64,000 bases of DNA. Origin: Parabacteroides merdae ATCC 43184 (GTDB taxonomy: Bacteria; Bacteroidota; Bacteroidia; Bacteroidales; Tannerellaceae). The notes under the pieces were generated by a model. The model was not told where the DNA came from and made no database searches. It saw nothing but the letters and a program-made list of their open reading frames with translations. Each line of letters starts with the position of its first letter. Position 1 is the stretch's first letter. Positions 37,913 through 62,171 of the stretch are shown here, one piece after another. The DNA lies in assembly GCF_025151215.1 (NCBI RefSeq), contig NZ_CP102286.1:3534001-3598000 (forward strand). The letters run 5' to 3'. A program made the position numbers and the translations under genes.

Positions 37913-39217
37913 CTATTCTGCCAGCCATTTGTTAATCTGTGTCAGTATCTTTTCCTTCATGTCTTCGGGCATGTTGCCGATACGGGCGCGGTGGCTGCCT
38001 CCGGGTTGGATGTAGACTTGTTCGTTTACCTTGCCTTTGAAGATCGGGACGCGGGTGGCGCTCCACGGGTCTACTTCGCCATAGATAAAGATCATCTTCG
38101 GATCGTTGTCACGGAGGAAATCATAGACTTTGTGGTAAAGTTCGGGGCGGTATTCAACTTTGTCGACCAGCTCTTTCGGCAGCATGATGCGGTTCAGGTA
38201 TCCCCGGCTGCTGTCGATTGTCAGGTATTTCCTGAACGGTTTCGTGTCATAGCCGTAATAACCCAATTCGCGGGCAGCTTGTACGAAGAAGGAGATATTC
38301 GGCTGGTTTTCGGCAAAATAGTCGGGCCCGCTGATGTCAACCAAATGATAAAACAGTGTCTTTGCATCGGATGTGAGCGGCGGGATCACGCTGGTCGGCG
38401 TACCCCATTGCCAGAGGGCGAACGGGTATTCCAGGACGCAATAATCCAATACTTCGGCTATCGGAATGCGGAATTCCAGCTTCTTGTCCTTGCAGAACTT
38501 TTCCAGCATCGGGACGATTTCGTCCTTGTGTTTCAATATTTCAATCTGGAAAGCTTCGATCTTCTGACGGTCTTTCTTCGTGCCTACTTTGCGGAGGAAC
38601 GGTTCGTGGCGCCCGTCTTCCACACCGCGGTTCAAGGGGGCTACGTAGGGAACGGAGAAGTCTACGTCGTCCGGAAACCAGGCACGGTACAGGCAAGTGG
38701 TTTGTCCGCCTTTGCTGATGCCGGTGCTGACCCATTTACCGGTGTACAGCTCTCGGAATGTTTGGTTGACGTTATGCAGGTCGTAGGCCGAGTTCTCTGC
38801 CGTCAGGTATTCCCAATTACAGGGGGTCGGGGTGGATTCGAGGAAATAACGGTATTCCACGAATACCATATTGGCATCGAGCAGCTTCGACAGCTCTTCC
38901 TGATAACGAGGGTTCAAGGCATACGCCGCACCATATCCTTCCGTGACCAATATGGTCGGGCGGTCGAAACCGACGTGGGCGACGATCACGCGTTGCGTGA
39001 ATGTTCCGGCTGCCGGGTTCTTATGGTCGACAGGCTGTGTGATGCGTACGAGATATTTCTCGGCATAATGGTCCGATTCCAGCTTCTCGATGCCGCTGAT
39101 TCCTTTCAGCCCTTCCAATTTCTTTTGTAATTCCTGTGCGTTACCTGCAAATGCGACTGTCAGCATCAACAGGAATGCGACGAGGCATGGCGATAAGGTT
39201 TTCAATGTCCTTCTCAT
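37913..39217 (-). CDS. Secreted serine peptidase of S28/S37 type
   Basis: A 434-residue exported peptidase with a signal peptide (cut near residue 27, AFAGNAQ). The pattern TILVTEGYGAAYALNPRYQEELSKLL near residue 90 and the nucleophile elbow GISKGGQTTCLY near residue 168 are typical of prolyl-tripeptidyl/S28-S37 peptidases. A likely Asp/His pair lies in FIYGEVDPWSAT near residue 380 and GGSHRARIG near residue 410. It would cut N-terminal peptides in the periplasm. It starts 4 bases after queG and is probably the last gene of the DUF2723 operon. Its 3' end runs into the 42-bp repeat array. Confidence 0.85.
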   Translation of the reverse strand: MRRTLKTLSPCLVAFLLMLTVAFAGNAQELQKKLEGLKGISGIEKLESDHYAEKYLVRITQPVDHKNPAAGTFTQRVIVAHVGFDRPTILVTEGYGAAYALNPRYQEELSKLLDANMVFVEYRYFLESTPTPCNWEYLTAENSAYDLHNVNQTFRELYTGKWVSTGISKGGQTTCLYRAWFPDDVDFSVPYVAPLNRGVEDGRHEPFLRKVGTKKDRQKIEAFQIEILKHKDEIVPMLEKFCKDKKLEFRIPIAEVLDYCVLEYPFALWQWGTPTSVIPPLTSDAKTLFYHLVDISGPDYFAENQPNISFFVQAARELGYYGYDTKPFRKYLTIDSSRGYLNRIMLPKELVDKVEYRPELYHKVYDFLRDNDPKMIFIYGEVDPWSATRVPIFKGKVNEQVYIQPGGSHRARIGNMPEDMKEKILTQINKWLAE

Positions 39218-57004: not shown

Positions 57005-57133
57005 GTCTTGTTATATTTTCGTTTATTTTCTTTTATAGACGAGAGGGGGCATATTACGGTTGCATATTTTCTTTACTTTTTGATGAATTAGTTTTTATTA
57101 TATGCTTTACAACACAAATTAGTACTTTAACTA

Positions 57134-57285
57134 TTGACGAATTAGGAAAAGCCCGTATCTTTGTATCGTGGTTTTTTCATAATAGTATTAGATTTAAGGT
57201 TAACAAAGTTGGTTAGGGGTTGTCGTGAGACAGCCTTTAATTTTTTATAGGATTTCTGTACTACAGAAATATTTTCTATTTCCTG
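57134..57285 (+). ncRNA. Putative small RNA, copy 1, with promoter and terminator
   Basis: The promoter has TTG 57134-57136, a 19-base spacer and TATCTTTG 57156-57163, so transcription should start near 57169. The next ~75 bases are almost identical to 61682-61768 (85 of 87 bases). They contain the stem GGTTGTC (57218-57224)/GACAGCC (57229-57235) with a GTGA loop. An ATTTCTGT/ACAGAAAT hairpin (57252-57270) and TATTTTCTATTT would end it. It runs antisense over the last ~100 bases of the DUF6807 gene. The layout resembles Rfam-type Bacteroidales RNAs, but I cannot name the family. Confidence 0.7.
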
Positions 57286-58203
57286 GTTGGAAAGATAATC
57301 TCCGTCCTTTATCAAAATCTGATGGGTGAAAGTGATGGAATCCTCTTTTTTTAGCAGGATTTGAACTTTTTCCGCCTGTTTATCGAAACACCGTCCTCCC
57401 AGGTTATTAATCGCAAACAGGCCGTATTCACGTGCATGCGACCAACCCGGATAATTGGGATTTTCAGGATGGTCTATGATAGCTATCGATATTTTCTCAT
57501 CTTTTATCTTCCCGTTCAAAACAACCCAAGCCGAACGTTTTCCCCAAACATCGTTACCGGTATCTCCTTCTTTATTTTGATAGATTCCGGAAATGTCGGC
57601 TTCAAGGTTTCGATCTAAACGCATACCGAGTAAGCCTTCTTTATTTTCCGTAATGAAAATAGAATCGTTGAAAGCAGTCAGTGTAGTGGTTCGCTGAATG
57701 CCTCTTTCGTGTGGCTTACCGGTGAATGCGTAGGTGGTTTTTTCTTTTAGTAGGATATATCCATTGTGGTTTGTCCAATTTGCTTCGACTGTAAATTGGT
57801 TTTCTTTTTCGTTTATATTTTTGATGCCGGTAAACCGGATAATGCCGTAATGTTCTTTTTTATCGAGGGGAATGCGATTCGAATTATTCCAAAAATCCAA
57901 TCCGTTGATGCTTCCGAAGCTAAACCATAGTCCCATCTGATGAGGATGGTCTGTCCGTTCATCGGCTTTCGGGCGGGCAGGATAGCCGCGAGTAATTTCG
58001 GTACCGGATGCAGTATAGATAGGATAAAGGACTTGTTTATATAAAGTGTCAGAGTAAAGAAATTCTGTAAAAAGAGTCTGGTCTATGTATATGCTTATTT
58101 TTTGTGAGTCGGGCTTCTCTATAAAGTGTATGTGTGAATCCTGACCTATTACAGAATTGCAATAAGACAGAGAGAAGAGGATAAGTAGAATCAGTTTGTT
58201 CAT
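57142..58203 (-). CDS. DUF6807 (PmoA-like) exported protein; 3' end overlaps a repeated RNA element
   Basis: A 353-residue exported protein with a signal peptide (cut near VIGQ). The DUF6807 pattern is clear: PIYTASGTEITRGYPARPKA near residue 62, DERTDHPHQMGLWFSFG, SAWVVLNGK, and HPENPNYPGWSHAREYGLFA near residue 245. It may be a sugar-related oxidoreductase or hydrolase; function not known. The natural domain end is about residue 320. The last ~33 residues (from KLKAVSRQPL) are encoded by the complement of the small RNA element at 57156-57242, so the original stop was probably lost when that element arrived. The oxidoreductase gene upstream is 100 bases away, with a hairpin between. Confidence 0.85.
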   Translation of the reverse strand: MNKLILLILFSLSYCNSVIGQDSHIHFIEKPDSQKISIYIDQTLFTEFLYSDTLYKQVLYPIYTASGTEITRGYPARPKADERTDHPHQMGLWFSFGSINGLDFWNNSNRIPLDKKEHYGIIRFTGIKNINEKENQFTVEANWTNHNGYILLKEKTTYAFTGKPHERGIQRTTTLTAFNDSIFITENKEGLLGMRLDRNLEADISGIYQNKEGDTGNDVWGKRSAWVVLNGKIKDEKISIAIIDHPENPNYPGWSHAREYGLFAINNLGGRCFDKQAEKVQILLKKEDSITFTHQILIKDGDYLSNQEIENISVVQKSYKKLKAVSRQPLTNFVNLKSNTIMKKPRYKDTGFS

Positions 58204-58242
58204 GGAGTAAAAATAATTAAAATGGGCTAAAAAGAAGGGCTA

Positions 58243-58285
58243 AACCTACCCTGTCCCCACACTTGACGCGGGGACAGGGTAGGTT
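58243..58285. repeat. Perfect 16-bp palindrome with CTTGACGC loop
   Basis: AACCTACCCTGTCCCC (58243-58258) pairs perfectly with GGGGACAGGGTAGGTT (58270-58285), with an 11-base loop. It shares the core CTTGACGCGGG with the element in queG. It lies between two co-oriented genes and may also modulate transcription there. Confidence 0.8.
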
Positions 58286-58303
58286 GACATCCTCTTTGAA
58301 TGT

Positions 58304-59692
58304 TTATAAGATACGTTTATACAACTTCTTTTCCTGTGGTTGGATCGATGTTAAATCTGCAATTTTTACCGGTTGTCCGGATGCTATACTGTTGCGGGCC
58401 GCGATTCCGACCAGACAGGCCAAAGCTCCGTCGCGGGTATTTGCACACTGTTGGAACGGATCGTCGATATTGGGCAGGAATATCTGGTCTTTTAATAATG
58501 CATCCCCGCCGCCATGTCCGGATGTTCCGAACGGAATCTGGATATATTGCCGTTTATTGAAGTTCTTGAACAAAACGATTTCGTCATAATTGGCATCCGA
58601 TGTCGGTTTGGATTCCTGAATCCAGGCTTCCAGACGTCCTTTTGTTCCGTTGAATGCAATCCGGTAACCTTCGTATGGAGAATAGGTTGTCAACGAATAG
58701 GCTACTTGTACACCATTTTTATATTTGATTGTTGCTGCCATTTTGTCGAAGATGTTTACATCTTTTTTGAACACACAACCGTCGCGCAGGTAACCGTCGT
58801 GCTTTTCATTGGCCACGTACAGTTCCATGTAGTTCTTGTTCTTGGTGATGTCAAAAAAGAACTTGCATTTGTCTGTATGCGGGCATGTACGGCAGTTTTC
58901 TGCCCGTATGGTTCCATTCTTTCCATAATGGTTGAGAGCCCCAAGCGCATAAACACTTTCGGGATCGCTGTCGATCCACCAGTTCAGGAGGTCGAAATGA
59001 TGGCTGGCTTTGTGTACCCATAACGAACCGCTACATTCAACGAGCCTGTGCCAGCGGCGGAAATAATCGGCTCCGTGTGAGGTATCCAGATACCAGTGGA
59101 AATCGACGGAAGTGATATCACCGATTTCTCCGGCACGAAGCAGTTCCCATATTTTTGCCCGGTGAGGGGAATAACGGTAGTTGAACGTGACCCGGCATGT
59201 CTTGCCCGTCCGCTTTTCAGCATCCAGAATCGCTTGGATTTTCTTTTCATCGGTCGTCATCGGTTTTTCCGTGATAATGTCGGCTCCCAACTCCATTCCC
59301 CGGATAATGAATTGATGGTGTGTGCTGTCCATTGTCGTGACAATCAATACATCCGGTTTTGTCTCGTTTATCATTTTTTCAAAATCGGTATATGTCGGAC
59401 AAGAAGTGCCGATGATACGTTTGCCGGTTTCAACACGTCCTTCGTTTTTATCGCAAAGGCCTACGAACTCAAGGTAATCAGGATAACTTTTCAGAATGTC
59501 CCTTCCCCACATGGATGTCCCGCGGCCCCCTGTCCCGACAAGTGCGATCCGGAGTTTTTTACCTGTCGGTGCTGAAATACCGGTAGTTTTTGCTTTTATA
59601 TCAGATAAGGGATTGAGCAAGGCCGTTCCGGCAATCGCCCCTGTGGTTGCAAGAAAATGTCTTCTTGACATTTGGTTTGTTGTGTTATGCAT
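58304..59692 (-). CDS. Gfo/Idh/MocA-family oxidoreductase with Tat-type signal
   Basis: A 462-residue exported oxidoreductase. ATG 59692 is preferred (then SRRHFLATTGAIAGTALLN, a twin-arginine-like leader); ATG 59671 (MSRRHF) is an alternative. The Rossmann motif LRIALVGTGGRGTSMWGRD is near residue 42, and the conserved ADIITEKPMTTDEKK near residue 130 carries the family Lys. The C-terminal domain contains WVHKASHHFDLLNWWI and a Cys-rich loop (CRTCPHTDKCKF). It would act on sugars or glycosides. It is probably co-transcribed with DUF6807, from a promoter at 59795. Confidence 0.9.
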   Translation of the reverse strand: MHNTTNQMSRRHFLATTGAIAGTALLNPLSDIKAKTTGISAPTGKKLRIALVGTGGRGTSMWGRDILKSYPDYLEFVGLCDKNEGRVETGKRIIGTSCPTYTDFEKMINETKPDVLIVTTMDSTHHQFIIRGMELGADIITEKPMTTDEKKIQAILDAEKRTGKTCRVTFNYRYSPHRAKIWELLRAGEIGDITSVDFHWYLDTSHGADYFRRWHRLVECSGSLWVHKASHHFDLLNWWIDSDPESVYALGALNHYGKNGTIRAENCRTCPHTDKCKFFFDITKNKNYMELYVANEKHDGYLRDGCVFKKDVNIFDKMAATIKYKNGVQVAYSLTTYSPYEGYRIAFNGTKGRLEAWIQESKPTSDANYDEIVLFKNFNKRQYIQIPFGTSGHGGGDALLKDQIFLPNIDDPFQQCANTRDGALACLVGIAARNSIASGQPVKIADLTSIQPQEKKLYKRIL

Positions 59693-59794
59693 GGTAATGA
59701 TGTTTTGTATGTTTTTGTGGTCTGTTTTTAGATTTTCGATGATTTCATATTCAGCTATACTTGAATTTTTCTCGAATAGTTCCTCCGAACATTG

Positions 59795-59824
59795 CAAATA
59801 TATGCAATTTTGGGGCATTGGCAA
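59795..59824 (-). promoter_or_regulatory. Promoter of the oxidoreductase-DUF6807 operon
   Basis: On the minus strand the -7 box is TATATTTG (59795-59802), with TTG 19 bases upstream (complement of CAA at 59822-59824). The leader would be about 95 bases. Confidence 0.6.
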
Positions 59825-59920
59825 AGATCGAATGAATATCTTTGGGGAGGCTATCAATGCTTTTTTATCGGGATTATTCCGTTATTCGCCGGGATTTAGT
59901 AGTTACTGACCGTTTTTTTA

Positions 59921-59951
59921 TTGTGTAAGCGGTTATGTGGCGGTAGTTTTG
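59921..59951 (+). promoter_or_regulatory. Promoter of the LiaF-like/LytTR operon
   Basis: TTG (59921-59923) and TAGTTTTG (59944-59951) have a 20-base spacer. The start codon of the LiaF-like gene is 23 bases downstream. Confidence 0.65.
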
Positions 59952-59974
59952 CAACAAATTAAAAATGTACGAGT

Positions 59975-60736
59975 ATGAGAACGAATCAACAAGGGAATTT
60001 TATCAGAGGCGGTTATCCCAGCCACAGTAGACTGAACACGGTTACGACAGCTGCTGTGTTTATCATAGTAGGTCTGTTGTTTCTTGGGCGGAATTTCGGG
60101 ATAATAGACTCTGATCTGTTCGGTATCCTGGTTTCCTGGCAGATGTTGCTGATTGTGGTTGGCGTTGTCAATTTGATTAAACGGCATTTCTTCGGGGGAG
60201 TGATTACGATTGCCATAGGAGCCTATTTCCTATTGCCGGAAATAAGCTGGGTAGAGGGCGAATGGCTCGATATGTTCTGGCCGGTATTGTTTATTTTTGT
60301 GGGAATCATGATACTCTTTAAACCGGAACGTCACCACTTCAATGCTCATTGGGATGGCAGAAGGCCGGAGTATACAAAAGAGGTATATGGTTCTGAAGAC
60401 GGTTTTATCGTATCGGACAATACTTTTGGATCGGTTCAGCAGATTGTTTTGGACCCTGTGTTCAGAGGGGCACGACTTAGGAATGCGTTTGGTGGGACTG
60501 TCCTGGATTTACGGAGGAGCAAGCTGGAAGCTCCCCAGACGTTTATAGATATCGACTGTACTTTTGGAGGGGTCGAGATTTATTTGCCGTCGGATTGGAA
60601 TTTGCTGACGCAGATTGATGCATTTATCGGCGGATGTGACGATAAACGCTATAATTCGTCTGTGGAGATAGACAAGGAACACATTTTGATCGTGAGAGGA
60701 AAAGTCTCTTTCGGAGGTATTGAGTTTAAAAGTTGA
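59975..60736 (+). CDS. LiaF-like membrane protein (DUF5668 plus C-terminal beta domain)
   Basis: A 253-residue protein. The first ~120 residues hold about four hydrophobic helices of DUF5668 type (AAVFIIVGLLFLGRNFGI, VSWQMLLIVVGVVNLI, MFWPVLFIFVGIMILF). The C-terminal half is beta-rich, with a FGSVQQIVLDPVF motif and FGGVEIYLPSDWN, matching the LiaF/cell-wall-active-antibiotics-response domain. LiaF-like proteins sense or transmit envelope stress. It is 3 bases upstream of a membrane LytTR regulator and near two DUF2807 genes. Confidence 0.87.
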   Translation: MRTNQQGNFIRGGYPSHSRLNTVTTAAVFIIVGLLFLGRNFGIIDSDLFGILVSWQMLLIVVGVVNLIKRHFFGGVITIAIGAYFLLPEISWVEGEWLDMFWPVLFIFVGIMILFKPERHHFNAHWDGRRPEYTKEVYGSEDGFIVSDNTFGSVQQIVLDPVFRGARLRNAFGGTVLDLRRSKLEAPQTFIDIDCTFGGVEIYLPSDWNLLTQIDAFIGGCDDKRYNSSVEIDKEHILIVRGKVSFGGIEFKS

Positions 60737-60739
60737 TTT

Positions 60740-61537
60740 ATGCAGACGCATCCATTTATAGGGTCGGTCATCAATCGCGTGATGGGGATTACCCTGTCGG
60801 TTGTGGCCTGGATGATGTGTTCATGGCTCCTGTTCTGCTATGGAGGAGAGGAGATATGGATAGCCTGCCTGGATGGATTGGTCTCTGTCGGATTATTGGC
60901 TGCCGCCGGTTTCCTGTACGGATATGTTGACGGGACTATTCATGCTCTGCAAATACAGGTCGCATTGGCGGTATTGGTTCAGGCGATCAGTCTGGCAGGG
61001 GCTTTCGAGCTACAGGTGCTTTTGGAACGAGGAAATGCCGGTGATTTTATGGATAGTGTTTCCCTCCGTCTGGTCTTTGGCATATTATGCTGGATCATCC
61101 TGTTGCAATGGTATCGGATGAACCGGACGGATGAATCGGATTTTGAGGAGATATCCGGAACTGAGGCGGATAAGGGACAAGAAGAAGCGGTTCCCGCTGG
61201 TGAAACTTTTCTGGATCGCGTAGCGGTAAAAGACGGTTCCCGCATTCATATCATCCATCTCGAGGAACTGTTATATCTGCAAGCCGGAGGCGATTATGTG
61301 ACGATTTTTACTCCGGATGGCCAGTATGTGAAGGAACAGACGATGAAATATTTTGAGACACATCTTCCACCTGCTCTGTTTGTGCGGATTCACCGTTCTT
61401 GCATTGTCAATACCGAACAGATTTTACGAGTGGAGCTATTCGGAAAAGAAAATTATCAGGTCCGTTTGAAAAACGGAGTTTGTTTGCGGGCAAGCAATGC
61501 CGGTTATAAGCTCCTGAAAGAGCGTCTTTCTCTTTAA
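60740..61537 (+). CDS. Membrane-anchored LytTR DNA-binding regulator
   Basis: A 265-residue protein. The N-terminal ~130 residues contain four hydrophobic helices (VMGITLSVVAWMMCSWLLFC, LVSVGLLAAAGFLYGYV, LAVLVQAISLAGAFELQVLL, LVFGILCWIILLQWY). After an acidic linker the C-terminal ~105 residues are a LytTR domain (VKDGSRIHIIHLEELLYLQA near residue 166, FVRIHRSCIVNTEQI near residue 220). There is no receiver domain and no adjacent kinase, so this is a one-component membrane regulator, probably acting with the LiaF-like protein. Confidence 0.9.
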   Translation: MQTHPFIGSVINRVMGITLSVVAWMMCSWLLFCYGGEEIWIACLDGLVSVGLLAAAGFLYGYVDGTIHALQIQVALAVLVQAISLAGAFELQVLLERGNAGDFMDSVSLRLVFGILCWIILLQWYRMNRTDESDFEEISGTEADKGQEEAVPAGETFLDRVAVKDGSRIHIIHLEELLYLQAGGDYVTIFTPDGQYVKEQTMKYFETHLPPALFVRIHRSCIVNTEQILRVELFGKENYQVRLKNGVCLRASNAGYKLLKERLSL

Positions 61538-61658
61538 GAAAGAGGAATTGAAATGTTAATTTTAGCAGAATTTGATACCATTGTGTAAAGTTTTGCCCTT
61601 TGTAACACTTTTTATTGCAAAGCTCTTCCGGACTTAACATATATTGTCTGTAAAAGGC

Positions 61659-61799
61659 TTGACAAACGGTCTTGACGCATGTATCTTTGCATTGTGGTTT
61701 TTTCATAATAGTATTAGATTTAAGGTTAACAAAGTTGGTTAGGGGTTGTCGTGAGACAGCCTTTAATTGTTTATAGAGGGGAGCTTTTCCCCTTTTTTA
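61659..61799 (+). ncRNA. Putative small RNA, copy 2, with promoter and terminator
   Basis: TTG (61659-61661) and TATCTTTG (61682-61689) with a 20-base spacer give a start near 61695. Bases 61682-61768 match copy 1 at 57156-57242 except at two positions, both just after the -7 box. The GGTTGTC-GTGA-GACAGCC stem-loop is kept. A different terminator follows: AGGGGA (61777-61782) with TCCCCT (61788-61793) and a T-run. Mature length would be about 100 nt. Confidence 0.75.
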
Positions 61800-62076: not shown

Positions 62077-62171
62077 GACCTAAGTCGAAAACCTTTTTGC
62101 CCATTGTCGAAAGCCTTTTTGCCCAAGGTCGAAAAGGTATTCGACTTAGGTCAAAAGCTCTATGGCATTAT
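62077..62171. repeat. 22-bp tandem array with GTCGAAA head
   Basis: GTCGAAA starts at 62084, 62106 and 62128, and GTCAAAA at 62150, exactly 22 bp apart. The first two units agree at 19 of 22 bases. The block is bordered by a complementary pair GACCTAAGTCGAA (62077-62089) and TTCGACTTAGGTC (62140-62152). Confidence 0.85.

Follow-up and report, generated by a model that had tools for sequence, protein, structure and literature searches.

The window analyzed here comprises 64,000 nucleotides of Parabacteroides merdae ATCC 43184 (NZ_CP102286.1, positions 3,534,001 to 3,598,000) and contains two small genes on the forward strand whose sequences agree at 85 of 87 bases (57156-57242 and 61682-61768). 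This near-identity, which the initial annotation had noticed, does not extend into the flanks, where copy 1 and copy 2 agree at the chance level of 27 of 100 bases upstream and 23 of 100 downstream (from 57251/61777), and independent repeat detection delimited a common unit of 97% identity at 57155-57250 and 61681-61776. The Rfam covariance-model scan that had been recommended as a check placed both copies above the 56-bit cut-off of RF04319 (BTncRNA_FopS). The paired loci are therefore members of an already described small RNA (sRNA) family, FopS, in a distinct subclass (class B) with a new context. The features of the two genes are the following.

57088..57122, + strand: B1 upstream element of copy 1, TTAGTTTTTATTATATG ... 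AACACAAATTAG
57156..57163, + strand: -7 box TATCTTTG of copy 1, with the -33 TTG at 57134; conserved among class B promoters
57168..57249, + strand: fopS copy 1, class B FopS sRNA (RF04319, 60.9 bits), its transcript predicted to end at the first terminator
57172..57204, + strand: 5' seed region of copy 1, whose reverse complement, ...AATCTAATACTATTATGAAAAAA, reads as a 5' untranslated region (UTR) and start codon; largely single-stranded when the 82-nt RNA is folded
57211..57242, + strand: 14-bp terminator stem-loop of copy 1, followed by TTTTATAG (fold, terminator scan, covariation)
57252..57270, + strand: second hairpin after copy 1, a possible back-up terminator (read from the sequence; absent from the terminator-scan list)
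61604..61645, + strand: B2 bipartite upstream element of copy 2, AACACTTTTT-N20-TTAACATATATT, half-sites 32 bp apart
61682..61689, + strand: -7 box TATCTTTG of copy 2, with the -33 TTG at 61659
61694..61776, + strand: fopS copy 2, class B FopS sRNA (RF04319, 58.0 bits)
61698..61730, + strand: 5' seed region of copy 2, same sequence as the copy 1 seed
61737..61768, + strand: 14-bp stem-loop of copy 2, followed by GTTTATAG (fold, covariation; absent from the terminator-scan list)
61775..61795, + strand: second hairpin with T-run after copy 2, a probable back-up terminator (terminator scan)

FopS membership and the class B subclass

Scanning the whole genome (one contig of 4,377,447 bases) revealed ten FopS matches, nine of them over the Rfam cut-off, which is the many-paralog pattern of the family. 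With ten matches in a 4.38-Mb genome, the similarity of copies 1 and 2 goes far beyond chance, and the family was detected in 38 of the 38 genomes of the genus. The proposal made from the letters, a multicopy trans-acting RNA family perhaps present in Rfam, was right in kind; the candidate family then named, Bacteroidales-1, was dropped, as it gave no match at the gathering score in the scan of the 64-kb window. GibS (RF04182) has a related 5' seed (R1) but scored 31.6 and 27.7 bits for the two copies against a cut-off of 115. The core lacks an ATG, and the frame opening at its 5' GTG ends after four codons. The tenth, divergent FopS-like match (L010:1501-1580; genome 933186-933265) scored 46.0 bits, under the cut-off, and displays no obvious -7 box.

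The copies resemble the FopS-01 to FopS-14 sRNAs of Bacteroides thetaiotaomicron, described in PMC11697453, in being multicopy, in the GTG start, the GTATTAGATTTAAGGTTAA seed and the terminator hairpin, and in the housekeeping promoter. The ten genomic copies comprise three of class A (GTGTTTTTCATGGTATTAGAT..., 72-73 nt), six of class B (GTGGTTTTTTCATAATAGTATTAGAT..., 82-84 nt), to which both window copies belong, and the divergent one. Class B departs from class A in its longer stem and in its seed, which gains 3 nt by reading CATAATAG in place of the class A CATGG (CAUgG in the Rfam consensus). It also differs from the described family in its stem of 14 bp, compared with 7 bp in the Rfam model, in its conserved upstream elements and in its occurrence mainly in the window's own family (Tannerellaceae) and kin, whereas PMC11697453 places FopS within Bacteroidaceae and also in a phage.

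Exact class patterns, which overlook diverged copies, occurred in 64 (class A) and 10 (class B) of 393 genomes sampled across the order, class B being present in all five sampled genomes of the window's family, including the window's own. Within that family, 99 of 123 genomes carry class B (54 of the 61 of good quality), as do 15 of 16 genera. The 33-base core recurs in at least 120 named-genome matches, and its carriers among the matches listed include Parabacteroides, Tannerella, Massilibacteroides, Proteiniphilum, Seramator, Porphyromonas macacae, Candidatus Azobacteroides, and Candidatus Symbiothrix.

Structure, age, and spread of the paired genes

RNA folding predicts a weakly folded or unfolded stretch of about 40 nt from the GTG start, followed by a stem of 14 bp capped with GTGA and then a T-rich tail, and the reverse complement of the 5' end, GTTAACCTTAAATCTAATACTATTATGAAAAAACCAC, resembles a 5' UTR, a start codon, and lysine codons. 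The GGTTGTC-GTGA-GACAGCC stem-loop noted earlier is present, but the fold, the covariation, and the copy 1 terminator scan identify it as the top of the 14-bp terminator stem and not as an element apart from the terminator. In the same way, the unrelated hairpins formerly assigned to the copies as their own terminators do exist at 57252-57270 and 61775-61795, but they lie beyond the family terminator and are additional to it. At the place equivalent to 57252-57270, a hairpin with differing stem letters was read by eye in two relatives, G012 and G014. The terminator scan lists the common stem for copy 1 and the downstream hairpin alone for copy 2, so that the copy 2 transcript may end at either hairpin; the weaker tail of copy 2, TTTAATTGTTT, appears in 38 of 138 class B sequences, and TTTAATTTTTT in 26.

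The stem was examined in 41 sequences hand-picked for diversity from 113 with distinct hairpins. These had been chosen by the exact 33-base core, and the invariance of that core is therefore by construction, while the hairpin itself was unselected. In this set, 95.0% of the cells were paired and 12 of the 14 pairs exhibited changes on both sides; none of 500 shuffles matched the alignment on four of five measures, and 4 of 500 did so on the fifth (further pair types), with no slid register approaching the true one. The common 14-bp stem-loop is therefore a genuine RNA structure and the family's own terminator.

The genome is close to that of P. massiliensis (88% over 2.9 kb). In G012 and G014, copy 1 has orthologs at the equivalent position; they match it base for base between the GTGG start and the last base of the 14-bp stem, and their flanks have visibly diverged. 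The mean upstream identity in five genomes was 0.645 among copies 1, 0.691 among copies 2, and 0.535 between copy 1 and copy 2. This separate upstream conservation, together with the kept copy 1 orthologs, points to an ancient pair maintained by selection and not to a fresh duplication. A recent duplication of copy 1 into copy 2 as the sole cause of their identity was accordingly rejected, considering that each has its own conserved upstream region and that copy 1 with the same core occurs in two other species. A gene conversion test gave no clear signal (hairpin identity within genomes of 0.976, 0.951, 0.976, 0.902, and 0.878 vs between-genome means of 0.930 and 0.897).

The same observations bear on the idea that the repeated core marks an integration site or the end of a mobile element and was spread by transposition or phages, not by selection on an RNA, which we consider very improbable. 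Its 18-mer core was found in 55 IMG/VR contigs, 45 of which carry TTCAT before it, as FopS genes do, and phage spread is also suggested in PMC11697453. Against this, orthologous chromosomal places are kept in several species, and the compensatory changes in the stem require an RNA. The initial annotation had named a larger transposon end as one finding that would overturn its proposal; nothing common extends beyond about 96 nt, no inverted ends flank the window copies, and no transposase occurs among the eight neighboring proteins scanned, and a transposon end was consequently rejected.

Of the 55 contigs (L263-L317), most of the 45 with TTCAT were read by eye as carrying FopS-like genes with other hairpins, and the remaining 10 look like chance matches. 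The phage genes resemble FopS in their typical TTTTTCATAGTATTAGATTTAAGGTTAA followed by a hairpin and a T-run (by eye), and differ in the hairpins themselves, in a CATAG or CATGG spacing in nearly all cases, and in the absence of a -7 box from some. Phages may carry an anti-start sRNA of their own. In one contig (L265), the FopS-like gene immediately follows a tRNA-Arg; three similar-looking contigs gave no tRNA by ARAGORN. A look for FopS as a phage attachment site (phage records H8-H10 and the 55 IMG/VR contigs) found a few matches near contig ends but no att site.

Complementarity to SusC start regions

In B. thetaiotaomicron, FopS is a paralogous sRNA family that represses SusC translation; FopS-10 binds the start region of the susC gene BT_3983 and blocks its translation, an effect relieved by RbpB, which binds FopS (PMC11697453). 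Complementarity to SusC starts was evaluated here by pairing the 41-nt 5' region of the sRNA with positions -45 to +20 of each start, z being computed against 100 shuffled sRNAs. The SusC set held 53 of the 56 SusC matches in the genome, three having been dropped for want of an in-frame ATG in the stretch fetched, and the controls were 228 other open reading frames (ORFs) of at least 150 codons, drawn by a mechanical rule from the window and from fourteen stretches of 20 kb.

For class B, 25 of 53 SusC starts fell below z = -2, compared with 25 of the 228 controls (p 5.5e-9) and 19 of 143 AT-matched controls (p 6.6e-7). An exact 7-mer of any kind was present in 75% of SusC starts vs 44% of AT-matched controls, the corresponding values for the reversed sRNA being 40% and 38%. 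For class A, 21 of 53 SusC starts, 31 of 228 controls, and 24 of 143 AT-matched controls fell below z = -2, and the two classes were inseparable in target preference, with mean SusC z values of -1.88 and -1.75. The complementarity to SusC starts that marks FopS sRNAs is thus found here in statistical form, as an enrichment over controls.

Family membership, subclass, structure, conservation, promoter elements, and this statistical complementarity are established by the analysis. On these grounds, we regard the loci as very probably two paralogous trans-acting FopS sRNAs repressing the translation of SusC and polysaccharide utilization locus (PUL) genes, with transcription, targets, and regulator in this genome proposed on the model of the characterized family. 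Each copy would be transcribed from its own housekeeping Bacteroidota promoter, starting near 57168 or 61694, and would end at the 14-bp hairpin terminator after about 80 nt (perhaps about 110 nt for copy 2). The unpaired 5' region of about 33 nt would then pair with mRNA start regions, chiefly in transcripts for SusC-type outer-membrane transporters, so that the start codon is masked and translation blocked, and the identical seeds would give both copies a common target specificity. RRM proteins of the RbpB kind may modulate this action; the genome has four RRM_1 matches, one of them partial. Few sRNA families of gut Bacteroidales have been shown to control SusC/PUL output post-transcriptionally, and FopS is one of them.

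Several observations weigh against this assignment. The RF04319 scores exceed the cut-off by just 2-5 bits, with 12-13 inserted bases relative to the model, and when copy 1 is folded through 57290, part of the seed becomes paired to downstream bases in the best structure, though not in the centroid. Complementarity is modest gene by gene, 28 of the 53 SusC starts falling short of z < -2, in a comparison where starts were taken as the first ATG and the controls were mechanical ORFs, and certain non-SusC genes score equal to or above SusC starts. Among these controls, the start of a peptidase S37 gene (37913-39217, minus strand) had the best class A complementarity of all 228 (E -27.0, z -6.94; ATTAATACCATGA). 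A genome search for a near-perfect class B target, TTAANNCTAATACNNNNATGA, with up to two mismatches returned 24 matches, 10 of them FopS genes, vs 12 for the reversed control, i.e., no signal beyond FopS itself. As a local target, the nearest SusC gene (63598, 1.8 kb downstream of copy 2) was rejected, its best pairing (E -13.9) lying outside the start region.

Upstream elements and the LiaF-like/LytTR neighborhood

That each copy has its own Bacteroidota promoter, as had been read from the letters, was borne out: the TTG and TATCTTTG boxes are in place, separated by 19 bases in copy 1 and 20 bases in copy 2, and the logo agrees. Farther upstream, copy 1 carries element B1 and copy 2 element B2, and since they differ in these elements, the two copies probably respond to different signals. 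Out of 117 class B upstream regions, 17 have B1, 32 have B2, and 68 have neither pattern as written, while 2,340 mononucleotide shuffles yielded no occurrence of either. The AACA half-sites of B2 stand 32 bases apart in all 27 regions having both as searched, despite spacer divergence. Allowing one mismatch, the B2 pattern gave 21 matches in 11 of 21 genus genomes (the window's own included), all located 93-95 bases upstream of a FopS core, vs a single match for the reversed control pattern. Matches at FopS promoters are expected of a pattern built from them; the finding proper is that nothing other than FopS genes carries the element in the 21 genomes, though few matches would be expected by chance. 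Class A promoters, in turn, share a conserved element with partial palindromic symmetry, TATGCTGCATAA / TGTTATATAACA, which spans about -36 to -22 and overlies the -33 box position (by eye; L001-L003, L011-L039).

Four genes identified by Pfam overlap copy 1 or lie between the two FopS genes.

57142..58203, - strand: DUF6807 gene, a frame of 353 aa running antisense through fopS copy 1; its domain ends at residue 311
58304..59692, - strand: Gfo/Idh/MocA oxidoreductase, between copy 1 and the LiaF-LytTR pair
59975..60736, + strand: LiaF-like membrane protein (LiaF-TM, LiaI-LiaF-like_TM1), between the two FopS genes
60740..61537, + strand: LytTR DNA-binding regulator, whose end lies 156 bp upstream of fopS copy 2

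The open frame of DUF6807 crosses fopS copy 1 on the opposite strand, as it would if copy 1 acted in cis as an antisense RNA on this gene and its likeness to copy 2 were incidental. The domain, however, ends before the overlap, and the orthologous frame stops at residues 320 and 329 in G012 and G014; given these earlier stops, the C-terminal tail in the window (57142-57260) is probably a read-through into the reversed FopS gene. Relatives of this DUF6807 gene occur in 4 of 38 genus genomes, compared with 38 of 38 for FopS, and the ten FopS matches in the genome likewise speak against cis action, which we hold to be highly unlikely.

A pair of FopS genes enclosing LiaF and LytTR is found beyond P. 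merdae. The order FopS, LiaF, LytTR, FopS, on one strand and within about 1.9-2.4 kb, was observed in P. bouchesdurhonensis, Parabacteroides sp. ZJ-118, P. faecis, and P. goldsteinii, and three Tannerella records (L072, L096, L106) have FopS after LytTR. In six relatives, the two FopS genes are just 1.9-2.4 kb apart, with no space for the oxidoreductase; in the window, the extra DUF6807 and Gfo/Idh oxidoreductase genes separate copy 1 from LiaF, and the corresponding class B pair is spaced by 4.5 kb in G014 and by 11.5 kb in G012. Of the 123 genomes of the family, 67 have a LytTR match at E <= 1e-25. LiaF adjoins LytTR in all of the 30 best loci. Of these loci, 15 have a FopS core 105-174 nt downstream of LytTR, 7 have one no more than 1.5 kb upstream, and 6 have cores on both sides; copy 1 of the window is too distant to count in this tally, and 2 of the 30 loci end less than 200 bases from LytTR.

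This arrangement is compatible with a circuit in which envelope stress, sensed by the LiaF-like/LytTR pair, would lead LytTR to turn on B2-type FopS genes via the bipartite AACA-TTTTT / TTAACA element and so shut down large outer-membrane porins. The circuit would be an addition to the trans-acting FopS reading and no true alternative to it, and we advance it as tentative. The linkage of FopS and LytTR in half of the 30 loci and the restriction of B2 to FopS promoters both favor it, as does the occurrence of B2 in 9 of 10 genomes with a LytTR match vs 2 of 11 without (p 0.0016, uncorrected for kinship). On the other side, the linkage may be plain inheritance, and 15 of the 30 LytTR loci have no downstream FopS (2 of these end within 200 bases). 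P. distasonis NM39_I3 (L090; G005) has two FopS genes 635 bases apart, with B1-like and B2 elements, no LiaF/LytTR between them, and no LytTR match in its genome, and B2 elements also precede FopS copies far from LytTR (e.g., genome 3139441). The 32-bp spacing, moreover, differs from the usual LytTR repeat spacing, which counts against the circuit.

Also in its favor, bile salts induce FopS in B. thetaiotaomicron (PMC11697453). The accessible text of that paper names no transcription factor for FopS and considers a transcriptional regulator possible; LytTR, if the circuit holds, would be that regulator for class B. The full proposal, that in Parabacteroides and kin LiaF-like/LytTR is a FopS-dedicated envelope-stress sensor reading the operator AACAnTTTTT-N20-TTAACAnnnATT and shutting SusC porins in trans via sRNAs, is slightly more doubtful still; in the 21 genomes searched, every match to the operator with no more than one mismatch precedes a FopS gene. 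Class B, a FopS-specific element of fixed spacing, and a linked sensor-regulator pair render the question of a FopS transcription factor directly testable. The literature searched, with supplements and the Rfam full alignment outside its scope, offered no description of the class B subclass, the LiaF-LytTR bracket, or the operator: in the accessible portions, a paper on RNA-binding proteins of Porphyromonas gingivalis mentions FopS once, PMC12596196 contains neither LytTR nor FopS, and PMC10861873 has no relevant passage on LytTR or related terms.

Downstream of copy 2, an inverted repeat at 62077-62152, with 36-nt arms of 81% complementarity, a 4-nt loop, and repeated GTCGAAAA/TTTTTGCCCA units, precedes a HipA_2 gene. 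The HipA_2-DUF3037 pair, located 3' of copy 2 in the window, also adjoins FopS in P. gordonii and Parabacteroides sp. PF5-9 (L053, L065), where FopS follows the pair.

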